Shown here: one piece after another, positions 17,289 through 28,942 of the stretch
How positions within the stretch are numbered: position 1 is the first letter of the stretch
How the letters are laid out: the number at the start of each line of letters is the position of its first letter
Source: Natrialba asiatica DSM 12278
Lineage (GTDB): Archaea; Halobacteriota; Halobacteria; Halobacteriales; Natrialbaceae
Direction: 5' to 3'
NCBI RefSeq assembly: GCF_000337555.1
Contig: NZ_AOIO01000040.1
Location: 1-64,000 of the forward strand
DNA: 64,000 nucleotides
Notes under the pieces: model-generated
What the model was told of the DNA's origin: nothing
Databases searched by the model: none
Seen by the model: only the letters and a program-made list of their open reading frames with translations
Made by a program: the position numbers and the translations under genes

Positions 17289-17710
17289 AGCCTCCCCTAG
17301 GGGCTCTGACGAAATAAGTATCATGACCGTGATGGGCGGTTCGTCGGTCGAGTCGAACTAAACGTGTTACTGACAGGGCCGCGAAACGGACCGCCGCTGC
17401 AACCCCTTCGTTTCGCATGGAAACCCTGCGACGGAGGCCGTTCGATCCGAAGGGACCAGACGGCCGTCTGACGGGCGACTGACGCCGCACGTGAACTCGT
17501 CGAACCCCCTCGTTTCGTGTCGAGTTTTCACACCGTGAGATGCGATTCGGAAATTCCCAAAAGGAAAGACGGGGCGTCACAGTGGAGTGTACTGCAATCG
17601 TCGGTCGACAACGCTTGTGCCTACGCGAACGGAAGCCGCCGGCTGTTCGGGCAGAGAAACGGTACTACCGATCGGATAGAAAAGTGGCGACCCGTCCGAG
17701 AACGGGTCAC
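17289..17710. other. Intergenic region, no gene seen
   Basis: These 422 bases carry the htpX promoter at one end and the promoter of the beta-propeller gene at the other. Open frames here are short or run into known genes without domain support. Just before the ATG at 17711 there is a perfect 7-bp inverted repeat, GACCCGT-N6-ACGGGTC (17689-17708), lying between a weak TATA (GATAGAAAAG, 17676-17685) and the start codon. It could be an operator or a leader hairpin. Confidence 0.4.
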
Positions 17711-19327
17711 ATGGTCGAACATGATCGGCGGAACGTCCTGAAGTACGCCGGCCTTGCGATGACCGGCGGAGCGCTCGCAACTGGCGGTGCAGTTGCTGAT
17801 ACCACTGGGTCCGGGACCGGGGTTACCGGGACCGACGGACCGGCGGCTGAATCGCGCGGCTGGTCGTCGATCGGCGGGAACGCGGGCAACAACCCGGTCG
17901 TTTCGGCGGGCGATGCGCCCGAGACGCCGGTTACCGTCGCCTGGGAGTACGACCAGGGCGGGCCGACGGCGGTCGTCGACGGTACCGTCTACCTGACGAC
18001 CGACGGCGAGGTCCACGCCCTCGACGCGGCCGACGGCGAGGTCGAGTGGCGGACGGACGCCATCGGCGCGAGCGGTACACCCGCCGTCGCGGACGGCACC
18101 GTCTACGTCGGCGGCGAGCGCCTCACGGTGATCGACGCCGCAAACGGCGACCTCTGCTGTCAACACGATCTGGGCTACGACGAGGACATCGCCTCGCCCG
18201 TCGTCGCGAACGGCCGCGTCCTCACCGTCGGGGACGGAACGCTGTACGCGCTCGACGCCGCCGAACGCGAACTCGCCTGGGAGTTCACACCCGACGGCGA
18301 CCCGCTGTACGAGCAACCCGTCGCCGTCGGCGGCGACGCCGCGGTCGCCGTCAGCGAGTCCCGGGCGTTCGCACGTGAACTCGCGGACGGAACCGAGCGC
18401 TGGCGTCTCGACGAACCGGTCGGCGACGACGAACACGGTCGGTTCGCGAAGCCGAGCCATCGCCAGACGAGTTTCCCCGTCGCGACCGACGACGTGGTGG
18501 CGATCGGCAGCGCGGATACGGAGCCGGAAGCGATGTGGCCGCTCGGCTATACGACGCTGTACGACGTGGAAACGGGCGAGCGACGCGTGAGCAGCGAGCG
18601 TGCAGCGTTCGATCCGGCAGCGATCGCCGACGATGAACTCTACGCGCTTGAGTCGCACAACGTTCGGGGGCACGACCGAGAAACCGGTGACGAGAACTGG
18701 GACACGGCGGTCAGCACGTATCAGGTGTCCTCGCTGGCTATCGGCGACGGCACCGTCTATGCGGGCTTGACGATCGACGGAGAGGGATACGGTCCCGGCG
18801 AGGCACCCGAAGACGAAAACGGCGTGTACGCCTTCGACTCGGAGACCGGCGAGGTCGAGTGGAGCGTCGGAACAGACGAAATTCCGACGATCGCAGTCAC
18901 CGACGGGACGATCTACGCCAGTTCCGGGACCCTGGTCGCCATCCGATCCGAGAACGACGGCCGCGACGCGGAGTCGGCCGACGAGGAAGGGAACGAAGAC
19001 GAGACAAACGGCGAAAGCGACGGAGAGACGACCGATAACGGCACCGAATCCGGCGACTCTGGCTCCACCGGCGGAAACGATACCGACGAATCGGCGACCG
19101 GCGACTCGAACGAATCGGCGTCCGGAGCCGGGAACGGGAATGAAACCGGGGACGGAGGCGGAGATGGCAACTTGGGCGAAGGAAACGTCGAATCGGAAGC
19201 CGACTCGAACGAGGAGAGCGAGGGAATGCCCGGTTTCACCGCCGGTGCAGGTGTCGTCGGTGCCGCGGCGGGGATCGAAGCCCTCCGCCGCCGAACCGAC
19301 GCGGACACGGACGACACGGACGCGTAA
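17711..19327 (+). CDS. Tat-exported PQQ-like beta-propeller protein with PGF-CTERM anchor
   Basis: A surface protein. The N-terminus has a twin-arginine signal (DRRNVLKYAGLAMTGGALA). The middle (~50-415) is a beta-propeller of PQQ-like repeats, each around a VDGTVYLTTDG-type strand followed by LDAADGEVEW. A ~90-residue Asn/Glu/Ser-rich linker, probably glycosylated, follows, and the protein ends with a PGF-CTERM signal (MPGFTAGAGVVGAAAGIEAL, then RRR) that archaeosortase would cleave for lipid attachment. The start is at 17711, directly before the RR motif; the open frame further upstream is not signal-like. Ligand unknown; enzyme function is not implied by the fold. Confidence 0.85.
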   Translation: MVEHDRRNVLKYAGLAMTGGALATGGAVADTTGSGTGVTGTDGPAAESRGWSSIGGNAGNNPVVSAGDAPETPVTVAWEYDQGGPTAVVDGTVYLTTDGEVHALDAADGEVEWRTDAIGASGTPAVADGTVYVGGERLTVIDAANGDLCCQHDLGYDEDIASPVVANGRVLTVGDGTLYALDAAERELAWEFTPDGDPLYEQPVAVGGDAAVAVSESRAFARELADGTERWRLDEPVGDDEHGRFAKPSHRQTSFPVATDDVVAIGSADTEPEAMWPLGYTTLYDVETGERRVSSERAAFDPAAIADDELYALESHNVRGHDRETGDENWDTAVSTYQVSSLAIGDGTVYAGLTIDGEGYGPGEAPEDENGVYAFDSETGEVEWSVGTDEIPTIAVTDGTIYASSGTLVAIRSENDGRDAESADEEGNEDETNGESDGETTDNGTESGDSGSTGGNDTDESATGDSNESASGAGNGNETGDGGGDGNLGEGNVESEADSNEESEGMPGFTAGAGVVGAAAGIEALRRRTDADTDDTDA

Positions 19328-19523: not shown

Positions 19524-20672
19524 ATGAGTGATTCTCGCGCGTTCTGTCCCCGATGTGGGGACCCCGTTCCCGAGCGATCGGCCGACGACGCCGACGCCGA
19601 CGCCGCCGACCCACTCCGCCCCGGCAGCGAGGTCGATCTCTGTGATTCCTGCTATTTCGACGAGTTCGACTTCGTGGACGCGCCGGACCGAATCGACGTG
19701 CGCGTCTGCGCCCGTTGTGGGGCGGTCTACCAGGGGAACCGCTGGGTCGACGTGGGGGCACAGGACTACACGGATATCGCGATCGAACAGGTGAGCGACG
19801 CGCTCTCGGTGCACGTCGATGTCGACGATGTCGCCTGGCAGGTCGAACCCGAACAGGTCGACGAGAACACGATCCGAATGCACTGTTTTTTCACCGGTGT
19901 CGTGCGGGGAACGCCGGTCGAAGAGCAGGTCACGGTCCCGGTCAAGATCGCCCGCCAGACCTGCACCCGCTGCGGCCGGATCGCCGGCGACTACTACGCC
20001 AGCATCGTTCAGATCCGCGCTGAGGGACGCACTCCGACGAGCGAAGAAACCGAGCGAGCGGAGGAAATCGCCCACGACATCGTCGCCGACATGGAGGCGA
20101 CGGGCGACCGCAACGCCTTCGTCACCGAAATCGGCGAGACCGACGACGGCCTGAACATCAAGGTCTCGACCAACAAGATCGGCAAGAAAATCTCGAACAA
20201 GATGGTCGAAGAGTTCGGCGGCACGATCAACGACGCCGAAACGCTCGTCACCGAAGACGAGGACGGCAACGAAGTCTACCGCGTCACCTTCGCCGTTCGC
20301 CTGCCGCCGTACACGCCGGGCGACGTTATCGAACTCGATGACGACGACGAGGGACCGGTCCTCGTCCGCAGCGCCCACGGGAACCTCAAGGGTATTCGGG
20401 TGACGACCGGCGAGCGCTACGAGGCCGATTACGAGGAGGGGGCTTCGCCCGACGCCCGCAAACTCGGGGAACACGAGGATGCCGCGGAGACGACCGTCGT
20501 CACCGTCGAAGACGAGAACGCCGTCCAGGTACTGGACCCCGAAACGTACCGGGCCACGACCGTCTCCCGGCCGGACTACTTCGATCCCGCCGCCGAGACG
20601 GTGCCCGTCCTGAAGAGCCGCGCCGGACTGCACATTCTGCCCGACGAGGGCGAGACGGAGGAGGCGACGTGA
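19524..20672 (+). CDS. nmd3: NMD3-family ribosome-associated protein
   Basis: Archaeal relative of eukaryotic Nmd3, the 60S export adaptor. The N-terminal zinc region has CxxC pairs: FCPRCGD, LCDSC, VCARCG, and later TCTRCGR, as in the Nmd3 family. The middle carries the LNIKVSTNKIGKKISNKMVE segment typical of the archaeal proteins, and an OB-like domain (PPYTPGDVIELDDDDEGP) follows. The function in archaea, which have no nucleus, is presumably late 50S maturation. Its stop overlaps the GTG start of taw2 (GTGA), so the two are co-transcribed. Confidence 0.9.
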   Translation: MSDSRAFCPRCGDPVPERSADDADADAADPLRPGSEVDLCDSCYFDEFDFVDAPDRIDVRVCARCGAVYQGNRWVDVGAQDYTDIAIEQVSDALSVHVDVDDVAWQVEPEQVDENTIRMHCFFTGVVRGTPVEEQVTVPVKIARQTCTRCGRIAGDYYASIVQIRAEGRTPTSEETERAEEIAHDIVADMEATGDRNAFVTEIGETDDGLNIKVSTNKIGKKISNKMVEEFGGTINDAETLVTEDEDGNEVYRVTFAVRLPPYTPGDVIELDDDDEGPVLVRSAHGNLKGIRVTTGERYEADYEEGASPDARKLGEHEDAAETTVVTVEDENAVQVLDPETYRATTVSRPDYFDPAAETVPVLKSRAGLHILPDEGETEEAT

Positions 20673-21964
20673 CGGACGACACTCCCGACGGCGGCCCGCG
20701 GAACAGCGACGCCGACGAACTCCTCGACCGAATGACCGCCGACGCGCCGCTCGCCGCCATCGTCGAAAAGCCGCGTGCGGAGACTGCGATCGAATCACTG
20801 CGCGCCGAGGGCGTCTACGACGACTCGCGACGCGTTCGCGAGACCGATACCGAGAGAATCGCGCTGCCGATCACCGAGCCGCCCATCGAGACTGCCGTGC
20901 TCGATGTCGTCCGACAACTCGATCCCGACCCGCGCACGACCGACCTTTCCGACCTGCTCGCCGAGCGCGGCTGGAGCGAGGCCGAACTCGAGTCAGCTCC
21001 GAACTCGTGGGCCGTCATCGGCTCGGTGATCCAGGTCACGGTTCCGGAGGGGGTTCCGGACGACCAAGACGGAACGCGAGAGCGAGAACAGGGACGGGAA
21101 CGGAAACGGGACCGAGAACGGGAACTCGGCGAAGCCCTCCTCGAACTCCACGGCGAGGCCGACAGCGTGATCGCAGACGAAGGCATCGCCACCGAGGGCG
21201 AGGCGGGCCGCGTGCGCGAACCGCGAACGCGACACCTCGCCGGCGAGCGCGATACGGAGACGATCCACACGGAACACGGCACGAAGTACGGTCTCGATCC
21301 GACGGCAGTCATGTTCTCGCCGGGCAACCAGGCCGAGCGCGTCCGGATGGGTGAACGCTGCGCACCTGGCGAGCGCGTCTTCGACATGTTCGCCGGGATC
21401 GGCTACTTCACGCTGCCGATGGCCCGCGCCGGCGCGCAGGTGACAGCAACCGAGATCAACCCCACCGCGTTTCGCTACCTGGTCGAGAACGCACTCTTGA
21501 ACGACGTGAGCGAGCACGTCGACGCCTACATGACCGACTGCCGCGACCTGGCGGGCGAAATCGACGCCGACCGTGTCGTTATGGGCTACTACGGCAGCGG
21601 CGGCCATTCAGATGGGGGAACGAAAACGGGAACGGAAACGGAATCGGGAACGAACGCGGAATCCACCTCCGAACACGAACCCTATTTCGAATCCAAAGTC
21701 GAAGCCGAACCCGAACCCGAGTTCACCGCGAGAACAGACGCCGCCCACACGTTCCTCGACGACGCCCTCGACGCCCTCGTCTCCGGCGGGACCCTCCACT
21801 ACCACGAAGCGACCCCCGAAACACTGCTCTGGGAGCGGCCACTCGAGCGCGTCGAAACCGCGATCGACGCCGCCGGCCGAACGCTCACTGAACTCGAGCG
21901 CCGCCGCGTCAAGAGCCACAGCGCCGGCGTCGACCACGTCGTTCTCGACGCGACCGTCGAGTGA
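20669..21964 (+). CDS. taw2: tRNA wybutosine aminocarboxypropyltransferase Taw2 (Trm5-like)
   Basis: Transfers the 3-amino-3-carboxypropyl group of SAM to the tricyclic base at position 37 of tRNA-Phe. Seen: the VMFSPGNQAERVRMGER block preceding the Rossmann fold, motif I FDMFAGIGYFTLPMARAGA, motif II TATEINPTAFRYLVENA, and the MGYYG segment where Trm5 has NLP, which favours Taw2 over Trm5. Start is a GTG overlapping nmd3. Two low-complexity inserts break the conserved core: an Arg/Glu-rich run (~residues 130-152) and a Thr/Glu/Ser/Pro-rich run (~310-350) right after the MGYYG motif, both coded by near-repeats of ACGGRA hexamers. A Trm5-like role is the alternative. Confidence 0.8.
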   Translation: MTDDTPDGGPRNSDADELLDRMTADAPLAAIVEKPRAETAIESLRAEGVYDDSRRVRETDTERIALPITEPPIETAVLDVVRQLDPDPRTTDLSDLLAERGWSEAELESAPNSWAVIGSVIQVTVPEGVPDDQDGTREREQGRERKRDRERELGEALLELHGEADSVIADEGIATEGEAGRVREPRTRHLAGERDTETIHTEHGTKYGLDPTAVMFSPGNQAERVRMGERCAPGERVFDMFAGIGYFTLPMARAGAQVTATEINPTAFRYLVENALLNDVSEHVDAYMTDCRDLAGEIDADRVVMGYYGSGGHSDGGTKTGTETESGTNAESTSEHEPYFESKVEAEPEPEFTARTDAAHTFLDDALDALVSGGTLHYHEATPETLLWERPLERVETAIDAAGRTLTELERRRVKSHSAGVDHVVLDATVE

Positions 21965-22267: not shown

Positions 22268-25200
22268 ATGAGTCGACACACATCGAAATCAGCGGTAATA
22301 CGGAGTATGGCAGTCGTCTTTGCCCTCCTCATGATCACGTCGGTCCCGGCGATGGCGGGGATCAGCGGATCGAACGGGGCAACGGAGACAACACAATCAG
22401 CACCAGCGGATGCTATCGAAGAGTCGCTCCGCACGGCGGACGGGACGACCGAGATGATCGTCCGGTTCGAGAGCGCTGACCCCGCCGCTGCGACGAGTTC
22501 AGCCGATGCCATCGAGATGATGCAATCGCAGGCGGACGAGTCGCAGACGAAAGCCCAGAAGTGGGCGGCAGAGACCGACGGCGTCGAGTTCGTCGAGAGC
22601 TTCTGGATCGCGAACGCGGCGCTCCTGGAGGTCGACACGGACGAAGTGTCGCCGAAGGAGGTGCTTCGGTACACCGGTGGCGAACGCCTTCACGAGAACT
22701 TCGAGCTGTCGCTCCCGGAGAGCCAGTCCGACGCTGACGAGAGCTACTCGCCGGCCAACGAGAGCGCCAACGTCACGTACGGACTCGACATGATCAACGC
22801 GACCGAGGTCTGGGACGAACACGGCACCCAGGGCGAGGGCGCTGGCGTCGCCGTGCTCGACACCGGCGTCGACGGCGACCACCCGGACATCGACATCGCC
22901 GACGAGAACTGGCAGGAGTTCGATAGCAACGGCGAGCCGGTCGACTCCGAGCCGAACGACGGCCAGGGTCACGGGACGCACGTGAGCGGCACGGTCTCCG
23001 GATCGGACGATCCGGCCGGTGACGTTCCCGCCTTCGGCGTCGCACCCGACGCTGAACTCTACCACGGGAAGGTGCTCGACGACAGCGGCGGCGGTACGTT
23101 CGCCCAGATCATCGCCGGGATGGAGTGGGCAGTCGACGACACCGACGCCGACGTGGTCTCGATGAGTCTCGGCGCGGCCGGCTACGACAGCCAGATGATG
23201 GAGCCGTCCGAGAACGCCCGCGACGCGGGCGTCGTGCTCGTGACGTCCGCCGGCAACTCCGGTGACGGCGTCAGTGGCACGCCCGGAAACATCTATCCGA
23301 ACTTCGCCAGCGGTGCCGTCGACGCGGAGCACAACGTCGCCTCGTTCTCGAGCGGCGAAGAGATCGAGACGGCCGAAGCCTATCCCGACGCGCCCGAGTA
23401 CTGGCCCGACAACTACACGGTACCGAACGCGGCAGCGCCCGGCGTCGACGTGCTGAGTTCGGTGCCCGGCGGCGGCTACGACGACACCTACTCGGGAACG
23501 TCGATGTCCGCACCGCACCACGCGGGAGCGTTCGCGCTGATGATCGCCGCCTCCGGCGGCGACGCCGACCGCGAGATGCTCTACGACGCGATGGAGGAGA
23601 CCGCCTGGAAGCCCGCCGACTGGGACGAACCCGACGACGAGTACGACACCCGCTACGGCATGGGTATCATCGACGTCGCAGCCGCGACGAACATGGTCGC
23701 ACTCGACAGCGGAATCGACGGCACCGTCACGGACGCCGCCGGTGAGCCGATCGACGGCGCAACCGTCGCCATCGAAGACGGTATCGAGACCGAAACCGAC
23801 GCGAACGGTGAGTACAGCCTGGTCGCTCCGGCCGGCACCCACACCGTCACCGTCGACGGCTTCGGCTACGAGTCGACCGGCGCCGACGTGACCGTCACCG
23901 AAGAAAACACCACCGTCCAGGACTTCGAACTCGCCGACGCGCTCGACGCCGAACTGGCCGACGGCCAGCCCAACGGCGTCGAAGGCGGCGATGCGATCAC
24001 CGTGACGACAACCGTTGCGAACGCCGAAACGGTTACCGTCGACCTCGCGGGCGACTACGACCCCGCGGACGCGACGCTGTACGTCGAGGGCGAGGAAGCC
24101 GCATTCGGCGAACCCGTCGACCTCGACGGACCGATCTCGGACGAGTTGACGATCACCGTCGAAACGACCGAAGATACCGCGGGTGAACTCTCGCTCGAGC
24201 AGACGATCGGCGGCATGGGCGACGAACTGACCGTAAGCACCGGTCCGACGATGGTCTTCGAGGAGTACGTTCCCGTCGCCGTCGTGGACGATGCCGGCGC
24301 CCAGGGAGAAGCCGTCGCCGACACGCTCGACGGCTCGCTTCCGGAAATGTACGACCCCGTCGTGACGACGTCCGACGAGGCGATGGACGGCTACGACGTG
24401 ATCGTCGTTCAGAACATCGAGACGGCGAACGCCGACGAGTTCGTCAGCGCGACCGAAGGGGGCGACACCGGCGTCGTCTACCTCGATCAGTGGGGCGACG
24501 GAAGTAACGGCATTCCGGCCCACTCCAACGCGACCGGCGAGCCGGCATCCACGTTCGAGGACGACCTCGTCTCGCCGCCGCTCGGATACGAACTGACCGC
24601 CGACCACGAGATCTTCGAGGGCGTCGGTGAGGCCGGCGATACCGTCGACCTCCACACCGCGCTCTTCGGCGACCACACCTGGTTCGACGGCACCGAGTAC
24701 GACGTGCTCGCGGAGACGACCGTTACTGGATCACCGGTCGGTTCCGGCTTCGCCGTCGACGACGAGAGTTCAACGATCCTGGCGTCGAACCTGGGATACA
24801 CGACCTTCGTCACCGGCGGTGACTACACGGCCGACGCCGACGCGATTCTGGCGAACTCGGTCGAGTACCTTGTTTCGGGTACTGACGAACCGGAGAGCGC
24901 CCTCATGTTCGGCGAGGGCGACTATATGGGATCCATCGGCGAGACGACGACGGTCGAGATCAACACGACCGCCGAGGCCGTGGCCGGCTACGAGACGCAA
25001 GTCCACTTCGACCCCGACGTCGTGCAGGTCGAGGGCGTCGCCGGCGTCGACTTCGCGGACCCGGTCACGAGTATCGACAACGAGAACGGCACGGTCTCGC
25101 TCGCACAGGCCCAGAGCAGCACCGAAACGATGCCGACCCTCGCCGAGATCGACTTCGAGTTCATCGGGGAGAGCGACAACGAAACCGAACTCGTGTTCGA

Positions 25201-25480
25201 CGCGGACAACACCTACCTCAACGACGAAGCGGGCGAGGTCAACGTCACGCTGGTCGACGGAACGATCGCATCGGCCTGGCCCGGTGACGTGAACGCCGAC
25301 GGGGCGGTCAACCCGCTGGACGCGACGCTGACCCAGCAGTACCTCACCGGCGAGGAACCAACCGGCACCTTCCACGAGGAACTCGCCGACATGAACGACA
25401 ACGGCGAAGTCGACGCCGGCGACGTGACGAACATCCTCGAGGAGATCGTCAGCACGCACGGCATCGAAGCGCTCGCGTAA
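22268..25480 (+). CDS. Secreted subtilisin-like protease with cohesin and dockerin domains
   Basis: A 1070-residue extracellular serine protease. Domains in order: a signal peptide (~1-30, VVFALLMITSVPAMAG, like the haloarchaeal surface-glycoprotein signal); an I9-like propeptide (~55-150, TEMIVRFES... then EVLRYTGGER); the S8 catalytic domain with D198 (VLDTGVDGDHPD), H235 (GHGTHVSG), N330 (TSAGNSG) and S412 (GTSMSAPHHAG); a carboxypeptidase-regulatory-like fold (~483-558); a long region of unknown fold including a Rossmann-like segment (VAVVDDAGAQGEAVADTL); a cohesin-type domain (~876-1000); and a C-terminal dockerin with two calcium loops (DVNADGAVNPLDATL and DMNDNGEVDAGDVTNIL). Neighbour at 25613 is a membrane-anchored cohesin protein. 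The protein is very acidic, as expected for activity in salt. Confidence 0.92.
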   Translation: MSRHTSKSAVIRSMAVVFALLMITSVPAMAGISGSNGATETTQSAPADAIEESLRTADGTTEMIVRFESADPAAATSSADAIEMMQSQADESQTKAQKWAAETDGVEFVESFWIANAALLEVDTDEVSPKEVLRYTGGERLHENFELSLPESQSDADESYSPANESANVTYGLDMINATEVWDEHGTQGEGAGVAVLDTGVDGDHPDIDIADENWQEFDSNGEPVDSEPNDGQGHGTHVSGTVSGSDDPAGDVPAFGVAPDAELYHGKVLDDSGGGTFAQIIAGMEWAVDDTDADVVSMSLGAAGYDSQMMEPSENARDAGVVLVTSAGNSGDGVSGTPGNIYPNFASGAVDAEHNVASFSSGEEIETAEAYPDAPEYWPDNYTVPNAAAPGVDVLSSVPGGGYDDTYSGTSMSAPHHAGAFALMIAASGGDADREMLYDAMEETAWKPADWDEPDDEYDTRYGMGIIDVAAATNMVALDSGIDGTVTDAAGEPIDGATVAIEDGIETETDANGEYSLVAPAGTHTVTVDGFGYESTGADVTVTEENTTVQDFELADALDAELADGQPNGVEGGDAITVTTTVANAETVTVDLAGDYDPADATLYVEGEEAAFGEPVDLDGPISDELTITVETTEDTAGELSLEQTIGGMGDELTVSTGPTMVFEEYVPVAVVDDAGAQGEAVADTLDGSLPEMYDPVVTTSDEAMDGYDVIVVQNIETANADEFVSATEGGDTGVVYLDQWGDGSNGIPAHSNATGEPASTFEDDLVSPPLGYELTADHEIFEGVGEAGDTVDLHTALFGDHTWFDGTEYDVLAETTVTGSPVGSGFAVDDESSTILASNLGYTTFVTGGDYTADADAILANSVEYLVSGTDEPESALMFGEGDYMGSIGETTTVEINTTAEAVAGYETQVHFDPDVVQVEGVAGVDFADPVTSIDNENGTVSLAQAQSSTETMPTLAEIDFEFIGESDNETELVFDADNTYLNDEAGEVNVTLVDGTIASAWPGDVNADGAVNPLDATLTQQYLTGEEPTGTFHEELADMNDNGEVDAGDVTNILEEIVSTHGIEALA

Positions 25481-25612
25481 GCAGCCGACAGCACAGGCTA
25501 CGAGACACACCATCGAATCGCCACGCGGCGATTCCGTCTGTAACCGCGGGTCGAACTGGGACACGACCGCACGGCCGCAGACCGCAGGAAACTCACATTA
25601 TTTCCAGATTCA

Positions 25613-26587
25613 ATGACACGTACGAGACTGACGCCACGACTGTTCGTTCTCACACTGGTCGTCGTCCTTGCGACGACAGCGATGGCTGCGACGGCAGCGA
25701 CGGCGGCGACACCCGTCTCCGAAACCGACGGACACGCACAGCCGACCGTTCACACGACCAGTAGTGACCAGGGCGCACTGCTCACGACCAATGCGGACGA
25801 GACGCTCACGCTCGAGGTCCTGGAGGAAACCGACGAAACCGTCACCGTCGCCATCTCCTCGACGGCCGCCGATACCGCCGGCTTCCAGGCGAACCTGAGC
25901 TACGATCCCGACGCGACGAGCGTCACCGACTTCGAGTTCGGGGACCTCGACGGAACTGCCGACGACAACGTCGATTCCGACACCGGACACCTCTTCCTGA
26001 CCGAATCCGTCGTCGGAGCCGACAGCCTCGACGAACCGACCCTCGCAACGGTGACGTTTGCCGTCGGCGAGGACGGCCTGGACGAACTCGAGTTCGTCGA
26101 CGACGACTCGCTCGTGAGCGATAGTAACGGCGATGTGATCAGCGGCGAAGACGATGGAGACGGTGGCGAGTCGCCACCCGCCGGCGGCGGCGGTGGCAGT
26201 AGCGGTGACGACGACGCCAGCGGCGGGAGCGGCGCTGGAACCGGTGATAACGGCGACGAAAACGGAGACGACACTGACGAGACCGACGGCGGCAACGAAA
26301 CCGATGGCGGAGCGGCGGACGGAACGGGCGACAGCGACGGTGACGGAAGCGTCAGCGACGATGACGACGCTGGAACGACCGATGGCGACGGCGACGACGG
26401 CGACGCGGATAGCGATGGCGACGACGGCGGGGAAAGCGACGACGCGGACGGCGAAACGACCGACGACGGGAACAGTAGCGACGACGAGGGAAGTGACGGA
26501 CTGCCGGGCTTCACCGGTGGCATCACGCTCGGCGTGCTGGTAGCCGTCCTGGCCGTTCTCGGTGCGGCGACGCGCCGGCGAGACTAA
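25613..26587 (+). CDS. Cohesin-domain surface protein with PGF-CTERM anchor
   Basis: A 324-residue surface protein. A Sec-type signal (~1-33, LFVLTLVVVLATTAMAATAA) is followed by one cohesin-like beta domain (~60-185; TVTVAISSTAADTAGFQANL, then LSYDPDATSVTDFEFGDLDG, LATVTFAVGEDGLDELEF). A ~110-residue linker of Asp/Gly/Ser/Thr/Glu follows, with few hydrophobic residues, and then a PGF-CTERM signal (LPGFTGGITLGVLVAVLAVL plus RRRD), for archaeosortase processing and membrane lipid anchoring. It lies 132 bp after the dockerin protease on the same strand and is a plausible docking partner for it. Orientation of the cohesin outward on a long linker resembles a minimal scaffoldin. Confidence 0.85.
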   Translation: MTRTRLTPRLFVLTLVVVLATTAMAATAATAATPVSETDGHAQPTVHTTSSDQGALLTTNADETLTLEVLEETDETVTVAISSTAADTAGFQANLSYDPDATSVTDFEFGDLDGTADDNVDSDTGHLFLTESVVGADSLDEPTLATVTFAVGEDGLDELEFVDDDSLVSDSNGDVISGEDDGDGGESPPAGGGGGSSGDDDASGGSGAGTGDNGDENGDDTDETDGGNETDGGAADGTGDSDGDGSVSDDDDAGTTDGDGDDGDADSDGDDGGESDDADGETTDDGNSSDDEGSDGLPGFTGGITLGVLVAVLAVLGAATRRRD

Positions 26588-27082: not shown

Positions 27083-28942
27083 TTACGAGCCGTCCGTCTC
27101 CCAGACGTCGGCGAGCGGACTCGACGACGAACTCGGTGAACTCGTCGAGTTCGGCGACCGGTCTGATCGGCGCGATCGGCTCCCGGAACGGCCGCGCCGA
27201 TGCGCGTTCGTTTCCCCGTCCGTTGAACGCTCCGCACCGCTTCCGGCGCGGGCGGCCTGCGGATCGAACGCCGGAAGGTCGGGGCGGGTCATGCGATCGA
27301 CCTGCGCGCTGAACCAGTCCGGCATGTCCGTGCGAGCGCGGTCGAACAGATCGAGGAGACTCGAGTCCGCGAGGTAGGTCGCGCCGTGGTCGTCGGGTGC
27401 GCGAACGACGCGCCCGCAGGCCTGGATGATGGTTCGTAACGCGGTGCGGTAGTACCAGGCCCACTGGCCCTCCTCGAGTCGGTGAGCGACCCGCGAATCG
27501 CCGGTGTTGAGATACGGCGCTTTGCAGAGGACCTGCCAGCGACAGAGATCGCCCTTCAGATCCAGCGCCTCCTCCATCTTCACCGAGAGAAAGACGTCGG
27601 GGCCGTCGCTTGCCTTCCACTCCTCCAGGTCGGCGTCGCGGCCGTCGCGATCGTGAACTCGGATGCGGTCGCCGACGCCGAAATCGCACAGGAGTTCGGC
27701 GAGCCGTTCCTGAATGTTATAGGAGTGAGCGTGAATCAGCCCCTTTTCGTCGGGGTGGCGCTGCATGAGACGGACGATGGTGCGGGCGATGTCCGGCGTC
27801 GTTTCGTCCCGGTGCTTGTAGGTCATCTTCCCCTGCGTCACGTCGTACAGCGGCCGGTTTTCGACGGGAAAGGTGTGGCCCACGTCGACCAACGCGACGG
27901 CCTCGGGGTCGAGTCCGACCTGCCGGCAGAAGGCCGCCTTATTGAGGATGGTCGCCGAGAGGAGGGCGAACTTGTTTCCGCGGTCCCAGACGGTGTGTGC
28001 GAGGTACTTCTCGGGGTTCATCGGTTTGATGGTCAGGGGGCCGCCCGGCGTCTCGTCGGTCCCGTCGTCCGTTTCGTCGCCGGTATCGCCCGCGTGCGGC
28101 TCGGATTGGTCGACCAGCCACGTCGTCGGACTCTGCGGGTCGCGGTAGTCCGAGACGAACCAGTCGAGTTCGCCGATGAGTTCCTGGAGGCGGTCGCGTT
28201 CGCGTACCTCGCGGGGCGACAGCGACTCCTGGGCGAGCAGGTCGTCCTTCCGGCGGGTGCAGGTCTGTTCGAGGTTTTCGGCGTAGCGGACGGCGCGTTC
28301 GATGCCGTCGATCTGCGGGACGCGCAGGTCGTCCCAGAAGGGGACGGTTCGTGGGCCGAGTTGGATCGTCGCGTACATTTCGGCCCACTCGGCGAGGCCG
28401 TGGGCTTCGTCGATGACGACGACGTCGCGCTTGCGAAAGACCTCGCTGCCGGCGGTCTGCATGAAGTACGCGAGCGTCATCGCCGCGATTTCTCGGTTCG
28501 AAGCGATGGCTCGGTCCGAGAAGTACGGACAGCGGTGTTTGACCGAGCAGTCGTAGCCGCGCTCGCGAACGCAGGGTGCCTGGTTGACCGGCGTGGTGCG
28601 TTCCTCGGGGAGGATGCAGGTGTAGTTCGATTTCCCGCGAATGACGTTCAGGTCGGCGAGCAGGTCGTCGGCCGCAACGTCGTCGAGTTGGGATACCTGC
28701 GGCGTCGTGTAGTAGGCTCCCGTGGCCTCGCTCGGATCGGCGTCCTCGACGGTCCGGGCACAGCCGGCGACGGCGCGGGCCAGAAGGGACTTGCCGCTGC
28801 CGGTCGGCGCGCGAACGAGCACCACGTCGTTGCCGGCCGCGAAGGCCTCGCGAATGTCGCGGAGGGCCTGCTCCTGGTTCCCGCGGTAACTGGGGGCTGG
28901 AAAGGCTTCGAAGAGCCGATCGGGATTCACCGTCTGACTCAC
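27083..28942 (-). CDS. XPD/Rad3-like ATP-dependent DNA helicase with 4Fe-4S domain
   Basis: A superfamily 2 helicase acting 5' to 3'. Walker A APTGSGKS (45-52), DEAH box VVVIDEAHG (~178-181), and between them four cysteines C109, C124, C132 and C138 (NYTC, QAPC, DC, RC), the iron-sulfur arrangement of XPD. The C-terminal helicase domain shows ATILNKAAFCRQVG, LIHAHSYNIQERLAEL and the motif VI-like QACGRVVRAPDD. A serine/arginine-rich tail (~50 residues) ends the protein. The likely role is DNA repair or transcription-coupled unwinding; the exact archaeal function of this branch is not known. Divergent to the tRNA-like gene at 29123. Confidence 0.9.
   Translation of the reverse strand: MSQTVNPDRLFEAFPAPSYRGNQEQALRDIREAFAAGNDVVLVRAPTGSGKSLLARAVAGCARTVEDADPSEATGAYYTTPQVSQLDDVAADDLLADLNVIRGKSNYTCILPEERTTPVNQAPCVRERGYDCSVKHRCPYFSDRAIASNREIAAMTLAYFMQTAGSEVFRKRDVVVIDEAHGLAEWAEMYATIQLGPRTVPFWDDLRVPQIDGIERAVRYAENLEQTCTRRKDDLLAQESLSPREVRERDRLQELIGELDWFVSDYRDPQSPTTWLVDQSEPHAGDTGDETDDGTDETPGGPLTIKPMNPEKYLAHTVWDRGNKFALLSATILNKAAFCRQVGLDPEAVALVDVGHTFPVENRPLYDVTQGKMTYKHRDETTPDIARTIVRLMQRHPDEKGLIHAHSYNIQERLAELLCDFGVGDRIRVHDRDGRDADLEEWKASDGPDVFLSVKMEEALDLKGDLCRWQVLCKAPYLNTGDSRVAHRLEEGQWAWYYRTALRTIIQACGRVVRAPDDHGATYLADSSLLDLFDRARTDMPDWFSAQVDRMTRPDLPAFDPQAARAGSGAERSTDGETNAHRRGRSGSRSRRSDRSPNSTSSPSSSSSPLADVWETDGS

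Follow-up and report, generated by a model that had tools for sequence, protein, structure and literature searches.

How an exported protease might be kept on the surface of a salt-loving archaeon is the question raised by two neighbouring genes in a 64,000-nucleotide stretch (hereafter the window), positions 1 to 64,000 of contig NZ_AOIO01000040.1 in the Natrialba asiatica DSM 12278 genome (4.40 Mb in 49 contigs). One gene encodes an S8 subtilase with a C-terminal cohesin and dockerin, and the other a single cohesin followed by a transmembrane (TM) tail. Coordinates and reading frames of both open reading frames (ORFs) are as in an earlier reading of the letters made without database searches (the sequence-only reading), which proposed that the two proteins form a minimal kit for docking the protease on the cell. 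Genomic comparisons support this idea well. Docking of the protease at the surface through the cohesin of the neighbouring anchor protein is the best, and a probable, explanation of what we observe, and the window pair is best read as the simplest version of a cellulosome-like display system specific to proteases.

The protease is composed, in order, of a signal peptide, a propeptide region, the S8 domain, a CarboxypepD_reg domain, an unassigned stretch at about residues 560-880, a cohesin and a dockerin. The Peptidase_S8 match in Pfam covers residues 189-466 (E value 3e-39), the catalytic motifs are intact (Asp-His-Ser triad D198, H238 and S412, plus N330), and the orthologues in G004 and G005 are 95% identical. 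Dockerin_1 was matched in Pfam at residues 1005-1054 with an E value of 5e-11 and 43.0 bits (curated cut-off of PF00404, 22.9 bits), and solved dockerins in the PDB match the same region with E values of 7e-11 and weaker. By sequence reading, each of the two 12-residue loops has a calcium pattern (D1007/N1009/D1011/N1015/D1018 in loop 1 and D1041/N1043/N1045/D1049/D1052 in loop 2). The cohesin gave no match in a whole-protein hmmscan against Pfam; it was recovered at 24947-25267 by a six-frame PF00963 search of the genome (30.4 bits, curated cut-off 24.1 bits), and our own cohesin profile placed it at residues 883-1000, four residues ahead of the dockerin. The sequence-only reading was therefore correct in giving this protease both a terminal two-loop dockerin and a cohesin of its own just before it. 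AlphaFold2, which we ran on sequences from the window and from named relatives, predicted the tandem as one confident module (predicted local distance difference test, pLDDT, 89.0; predicted template modelling score, pTM, 0.75), with dockerin helices at model positions 142-152 and 176-188. A profile of the tandem matches both solved dockerins and solved cohesins.

The cohesin of the anchor protein was detected in Pfam at residues 75-174 (E value 1.8e-5, 25.4 bits). A phmmer search of the anchor against the PDB returned no match; profile and fold searches found cohesins. The AlphaFold2 model of the domain has a pLDDT of 84.6, and the best Foldseek matches in the PDB to both window cohesins are themselves cohesins, including that of Archaeoglobus (2xdh). 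That the two domains might be unrelated beta-sandwiches, which would have undone the proposed kit, is contradicted by the agreement of profile, model and Foldseek; for the anchor domain, the Foldseek top matches rule it out. The tail reads GLPGFTGG, TM segment, RRRD, with a hydrophobic-run score of 17 of 18. The linker is the fastest-diverging part of the anchor (85% protein identity, versus 91% for its cohesin).

The scan covered 125 genomes from the family and 391 from the class, and the loci were then read. All 33 haloarchaeal genomes found to carry an S8-cohesin-dockerin protease have a cohesin gene directly downstream of it, for at least one copy each, on the same strand and with a gap of -65 to 244 bp (132 bp in the window), across several haloarchaeal families. 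The downstream protein has a TM tail in 32 of the 33; in the remaining genome, G361, the contig ends within the gene. Carriers include Natrialba sp. SSL1, Natronorubrum texcoconense, Halobiforma nitratireducens, Halobiforma haloterrestris, Haloarchaeobius iranensis and Haloarchaeobius sp. FL176. In two further genomes the cargo of the pair is not an S8 protease (a beta-helix protein in G039 and a protein like a carbohydrate-binding module in G210); the contig fetched from the fragmented genome G405 encodes a cohesin-dockerin protein but no such neighbour. The adjacency on which the sequence-only reading had staked its case is therefore kept in relatives, and its constancy rules out a chance neighbourhood of the two genes. 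The pairing also exceeds chance because the window genome has only three clear cohesins, one per protein, and three dockerins (six-frame and profile searches); the dockerins are carried by two S8 proteases and one PhoX protein. The dockerin search of this genome found none on carbohydrate-active enzymes, and the six-frame PF00963 search found no multi-cohesin scaffoldin.

Within the family the pair often occupies one site, with genes for NMD3 and TRM5/TYW2 on one side and for a DEAD_2 helicase on the other; the Haloarchaeobius pair lies outside this site. Among close relatives, the ratio of non-synonymous to synonymous substitution rates (dN/dS) was 0.08-0.10 in the S8 domain and 0.19-0.22 in the dockerin; the two cohesins gave 0.24-0.41 (enzyme) and 0.22 (anchor). 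These low values indicate that both cohesins and the dockerin (0.19-0.43 taken together) are under purifying selection.

The window-type site is enlarged in one genus, g12 (G017, G081 and G082). G017 encodes five S8 proteases with cohesins; within the parts read, four of them show their dockerin, and the fifth is split across two fetched pieces. The locus further holds small cohesin anchors, one cohesin-dockerin protein that lacks S8, and an 8-cohesin scaffoldin (L045:565-4341); a protease and anchor corresponding to the window pair stand at the helicase end. In G082, about 34 kb hold eight S8-dockerin proteins (three of them without any cohesin; the count includes the protease of the window-type pair), together with two cohesin-dockerin proteins that lack S8, a 14-cohesin scaffoldin of 2087 amino acids (L052:9161-15424; 14 stretches in Pfam, E value 1e-83) and a second scaffoldin with 3 cohesins. 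In G081, 4-cohesin and 2-cohesin proteins lie between two proteases. Some proteases of these arrays have two cohesins and one dockerin. The scaffoldin tails are PGF-CTERM-like (20-25 bits with TIGR04126, one above the curated cut-off of 24.5 bits), and it is these 8- and 14-cohesin proteins that S8-dockerin proteases, some lacking a cohesin, adjoin in G017 and G082. Judged by per-genome match counts, multi-cohesin scaffoldins occur only in g12 among the sampled genomes. Their presence at the same locus provides a traceable route from pair to machine. We lean towards the view that g12 haloarchaea assemble a cell-anchored ‘proteolysome’ on 8-14-cohesin scaffoldins, grown from the protease-anchor pair, and that haloarchaea broadly use pairs of a dockerin enzyme and a dedicated cohesin anchor as a general means of surface display for proteases, phosphatases and possibly cellulases.

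From the genes, their domains and predicted folds, the adjacency, the selection and the expanded locus, we infer that the dockerin binds the anchor, that the protease resides at the surface and that the cell benefits. The anchor would be exported and kept at the surface by its C-terminal TM segment, which archaeosortase A might exchange for a lipid, and the acidic stalk would hold the cohesin away from the cell. The protease would be exported by Sec, and its calcium-loaded dockerin would clip onto the anchor cohesin, so that the enzyme stays on the cell instead of diffusing away and peptides are freed near uptake systems. The protease's own cohesin, of a separate lineage, could accept the dockerin of another protease or brace its own. 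The g12 cluster of proteases with 8- and 14-cohesin anchored scaffoldins would be an expansion of this unit.

Whether the anchor is the receptor can be approached through loci with other cargo. In nine f4/f5 genomes the gene after a dockerin gene, overlapping or abutting it, encodes a cohesin with a TM segment (L093-L099, L108, L109), and five of the nine dockerin proteins were confirmed to combine Metallophos (calcineurin-like phosphoesterase) with Dockerin_1, with no cohesin detected in them. As these loci encode no partner other than the anchor, the simplest rule is that a dockerin binds the neighbouring anchor. By sequence, the phosphoesterase pairs appear to follow the same display logic and point to the anchor as receptor.

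Several observations weigh against docking on the anchor as we describe it. In a tree of 135 cohesins, unresolved at many forks, enzyme-borne cohesins fall largely apart from those of scaffolds and anchors, so that sequence does not settle which of them the dockerin prefers; both labels need several changes on the tree, with the anchors of Haloarchaeobius, of G019, G028 and G270, and of the phosphoesterase pairs placed elsewhere. In Haloarchaeobius iranensis the region fetched around a second copy of the protease (L047) contains no anchor, and the anchors of Haloarchaeobius and G019 have TM tails without PGF. In the window, the sequence-only reading rightly saw a single cohesin on an acidic linker with a C-terminal membrane anchor, but the profile gives its PGF-CTERM label little weight (11.3 bits with TIGR04126, under the cut-off). 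The layout of the tail does agree with the label, the orthologous anchor in G120 clears that cut-off with 25.7 bits, and another part of the window genome encodes archaeosortase A (E value 1e-93).

The dockerin might instead bind the cohesin of another protease molecule, a chain of the sort that the sequence-only reading also suggested, giving surface or free oligomers that the anchor merely caps. Every pair protease has cohesin and dockerin together, and some array proteases offer two cohesins for one dockerin; Clostridium perfringens enzymes form complexes by cohesin-dockerin contacts, as cited in PMC12997984, and cohesin structures of that species are among the Foldseek matches of the protease's own cohesin. 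The grouping of enzyme cohesins largely apart from the others suggests another ligand, however, and several array proteases and a protease on contig C7 (below) have a dockerin without a cohesin, so the dockerin works alone. We consider such chains doubtful. By analogy with the X module of bacterial X-dockerin dyads, the enzyme cohesin could also simply support its dockerin and have no other ligand. It always directly precedes the dockerin, 4-12 residues separating the two (4 in the window, a spacing that would also suit a rigid dyad), and they are predicted as a single module, but the invariant GY and AQ motifs of enzyme cohesins suggest a binding face that has been kept, and dockerin proteases without any cohesin occur in the same arrays. 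Such a brace is conceivable, if somewhat unlikely.

Haloarchaeal dockerins have been described as substrate binding (PMC10963439, PMC13260240), and the domain could accordingly serve calcium-dependent stability or substrate binding, as has been suggested for glycosidases of haloarchaea, its cohesin neighbour being an unrelated adhesin. Neither paper mentions cohesins, and the strict adjacency of dockerin and cohesin genes across genera and cargo types, together with the position of the 8- and 14-cohesin scaffoldins within dockerin-protease clusters, makes this very improbable. Docking on the neighbouring anchor remains our preferred explanation, and it suggests that haloarchaeal dockerins labelled ‘substrate binding’ may be docking modules.

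The modules themselves are known. The Archaeoglobus fulgidus cohesin/dockerin pair and the cohesin structure 2XDH were reportedly the subject of work by Bayer in 1999 and Voronov-Goldman in 2011, and we take the two genes to be adjacent. Binding between the Archaeoglobus partners is reported, and the pair has served for surface display on E. coli (PMC9705933). Like it, the window pair is archaeal and non-cellulosomal, with no cellulase context and with partners encoded together, and both window cohesins match 2xdh in fold; unlike it, the haloarchaeal system has an S8 protease as cargo and a TM/PGF-like tail on the anchor, and is widely conserved and expanded. A published summary (PMC9012536) states that large multi-cohesin scaffoldins were missing from archaea with dockerins or cohesins, and describes up to five cohesins in anaerobic methanotrophic archaea (ANME). 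The ANME dockerin and cohesin proteins are also archaeal and scaffoldin-like, but their common cargo is ABC-transporter binding proteins and they have at most 5 cohesins per protein, versus 14 in G082.

Bacterial systems offer parallels for the cargo. A Clostridium thermocellum S8 protease with the double dockerin dDoc_0689 is thought to be anchored to a cell-bound scaffoldin (PMC12484212), and the PDB match 8x39_A, named ‘Serine protease’, may be this module. It shares the combination of S8 protease and dockerin, but belongs to a bacterial cellulosome with many carbohydrate-active enzymes (CAZymes), has two dockerins, and the description names no dedicated cohesin anchor beside it. ScaO-type scaffoldins of Clostridium alkalicellulosi and Acetivibrio have the order peptidase-Coh1-Doc1, the peptidase being S8-like in A. 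mesophilus (PMC6780208, PMC11557425); peptidase, cohesin and dockerin are again on a single chain, but the proteins are bacterial, have extra galactose-oxidase/Rhs modules and are embedded in cellulosomes. Cellulosomes, amylosomes and mucinolysomes combine anchored multi-cohesin scaffoldins with dockerin enzymes, a logic seen in the G017, G082 and G081 loci, whereas the haloarchaeal cargo is S8 proteases rather than CAZymes, the anchor is an archaeal tail and the window proteins have one cohesin each.

A Halobacterium subtilisin, NP_280653.1, with two Dockerin_1 matches was listed in 2008 and assigned to cellulose degradation; it is likewise a haloarchaeal S8 protease with a dockerin, and the passage on it mentions no cohesin partner (PMC2605481). 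The suggestion of the sequence-only reading that such a pair may be undescribed therefore stands for the pair in the open literature, but not for its parts, given this subtilisin and the known bacterial S8-cohesin-dockerin proteins. We found no description of a haloarchaeal cohesin-dockerin pair or scaffoldin in the open literature, most subscription papers being outside reach, and the conserved protease-anchor pair and the multi-cohesin protease clusters look new. The pair and its expansion would extend cellulosome-like assembly to salt-saturated archaea and to protein degradation; the modules are small enough, once purified, to make the system testable, and they could offer salt-proof parts for display.

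Table. Features of the protease-anchor locus and its conserved flanks (window positions).
Feature	Position	Strand	Size or residues	Basis and remarks
NMD3 family gene, conserved left flank	19524..20672	+		PF04981, E value 1e-58; synteny
TRM5/TYW2 methyltransferase, conserved left flank	20669..21964	+		PF02475, E value 3e-47; synteny
S8 subtilase with C-terminal cohesin and dockerin	22268..25480	+	1070 amino acids (P0002)	Sec-type signal peptide; ORF, Pfam
S8 catalytic domain	22748..23707	+	residues 161-480	PF00082, catalytic motifs
CarboxypepD_reg beta-sandwich	23714..23932	+	residues 483-555	PF13620, E value 1.6e-15
Enzyme-borne cohesin	24914..25267	+	residues 883-1000	PF00963 six-frame, own profile, AlphaFold/Foldseek
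Two-loop type I dockerin	25280..25435	+	residues 1005-1056	PF00404, PDB dockerin matches, model helices
Single-cohesin TM-tailed anchor protein	25613..26587	+	324 amino acids (P0001)	Signal peptide; ORF, Pfam, conserved downstream gene
Anchor cohesin	25808..26164	+	residues 66-184	PF00963, model, Foldseek
Acidic low-complexity linker	26165..26482	+	106 amino acids	Sequence reading
C-terminal tail, PGF-CTERM-like (GLPGF motif, TM segment, Arg cluster)	26486..26584	+		Sequence reading
DEAD_2/Helicase_C_2 (XPD/DinG-like) helicase, conserved right flank	27083..28942	-		PF13307, E value 4e-22; synteny

Beyond the left flank, the window encodes a PQQ beta-propeller protein (17540-19327) with a PGF-like tail scoring 17.4 bits, under the cut-off; a PQQ protein just upstream of NMD3 is also present in G001, G004, G005, G010, G069 and G136. 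A protease relative at L051 (G035:C1:2950-2963 kb) has its C-terminal part broken by a TGA and no detectable cohesin or dockerin, an apparent loss of the module.

The other S8-dockerin protease of the window genome (P0003; contig C7, L008:1357-6453) has 1698 amino acids; its dockerin follows directly on the catalytic domain, and no cohesin adjoins it. It is the one candidate in this genome for a second client of the enzyme cohesin. Dockerin-bearing ORFs like it, encoding 1500-1700 amino acids, occur in many relatives, some without the window pair.

A second kit in the same genome lies on contig C38, its two genes about 12 kb apart (L002:1135-2079, minus strand, and L009:12641-15271, plus strand). 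It consists of a 314-amino-acid single-cohesin protein, adjoining a gene read as a 5'-nucleotidase tail, and a PhoX-family protein whose signal is Tat-like and whose dockerin, of another class, is weak (16.8-20.3 bits, under the cut-off). Small single-cohesin ORFs like this one are present in most genomes of the family. Clusters of GH5/GH9 cellulase type (L066 and L067, G106:C3:138-172 kb; L068, G028:C1:2912-2932 kb) have dockerins of a distinct C-terminal class (DGDGLYDDVDGDGQTTHADV...) that resembles the PhoX dockerin, and this difference in class rules out the G106 and G028 clusters as part of the protease system. The partner of the GH5/GH9 dockerins may be the widespread small cohesin protein, in which case cellulases of haloarchaea may be docked at the surface. 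In G082, the 14-cohesin genome, a region far from the protease cluster (L104 and L105, G082:C1:545-575 kb) encodes proteins of about 1900-2070 amino acids with PQQ beta-propellers, CARDB and/or PKD domains that end in an array-type dockerin.

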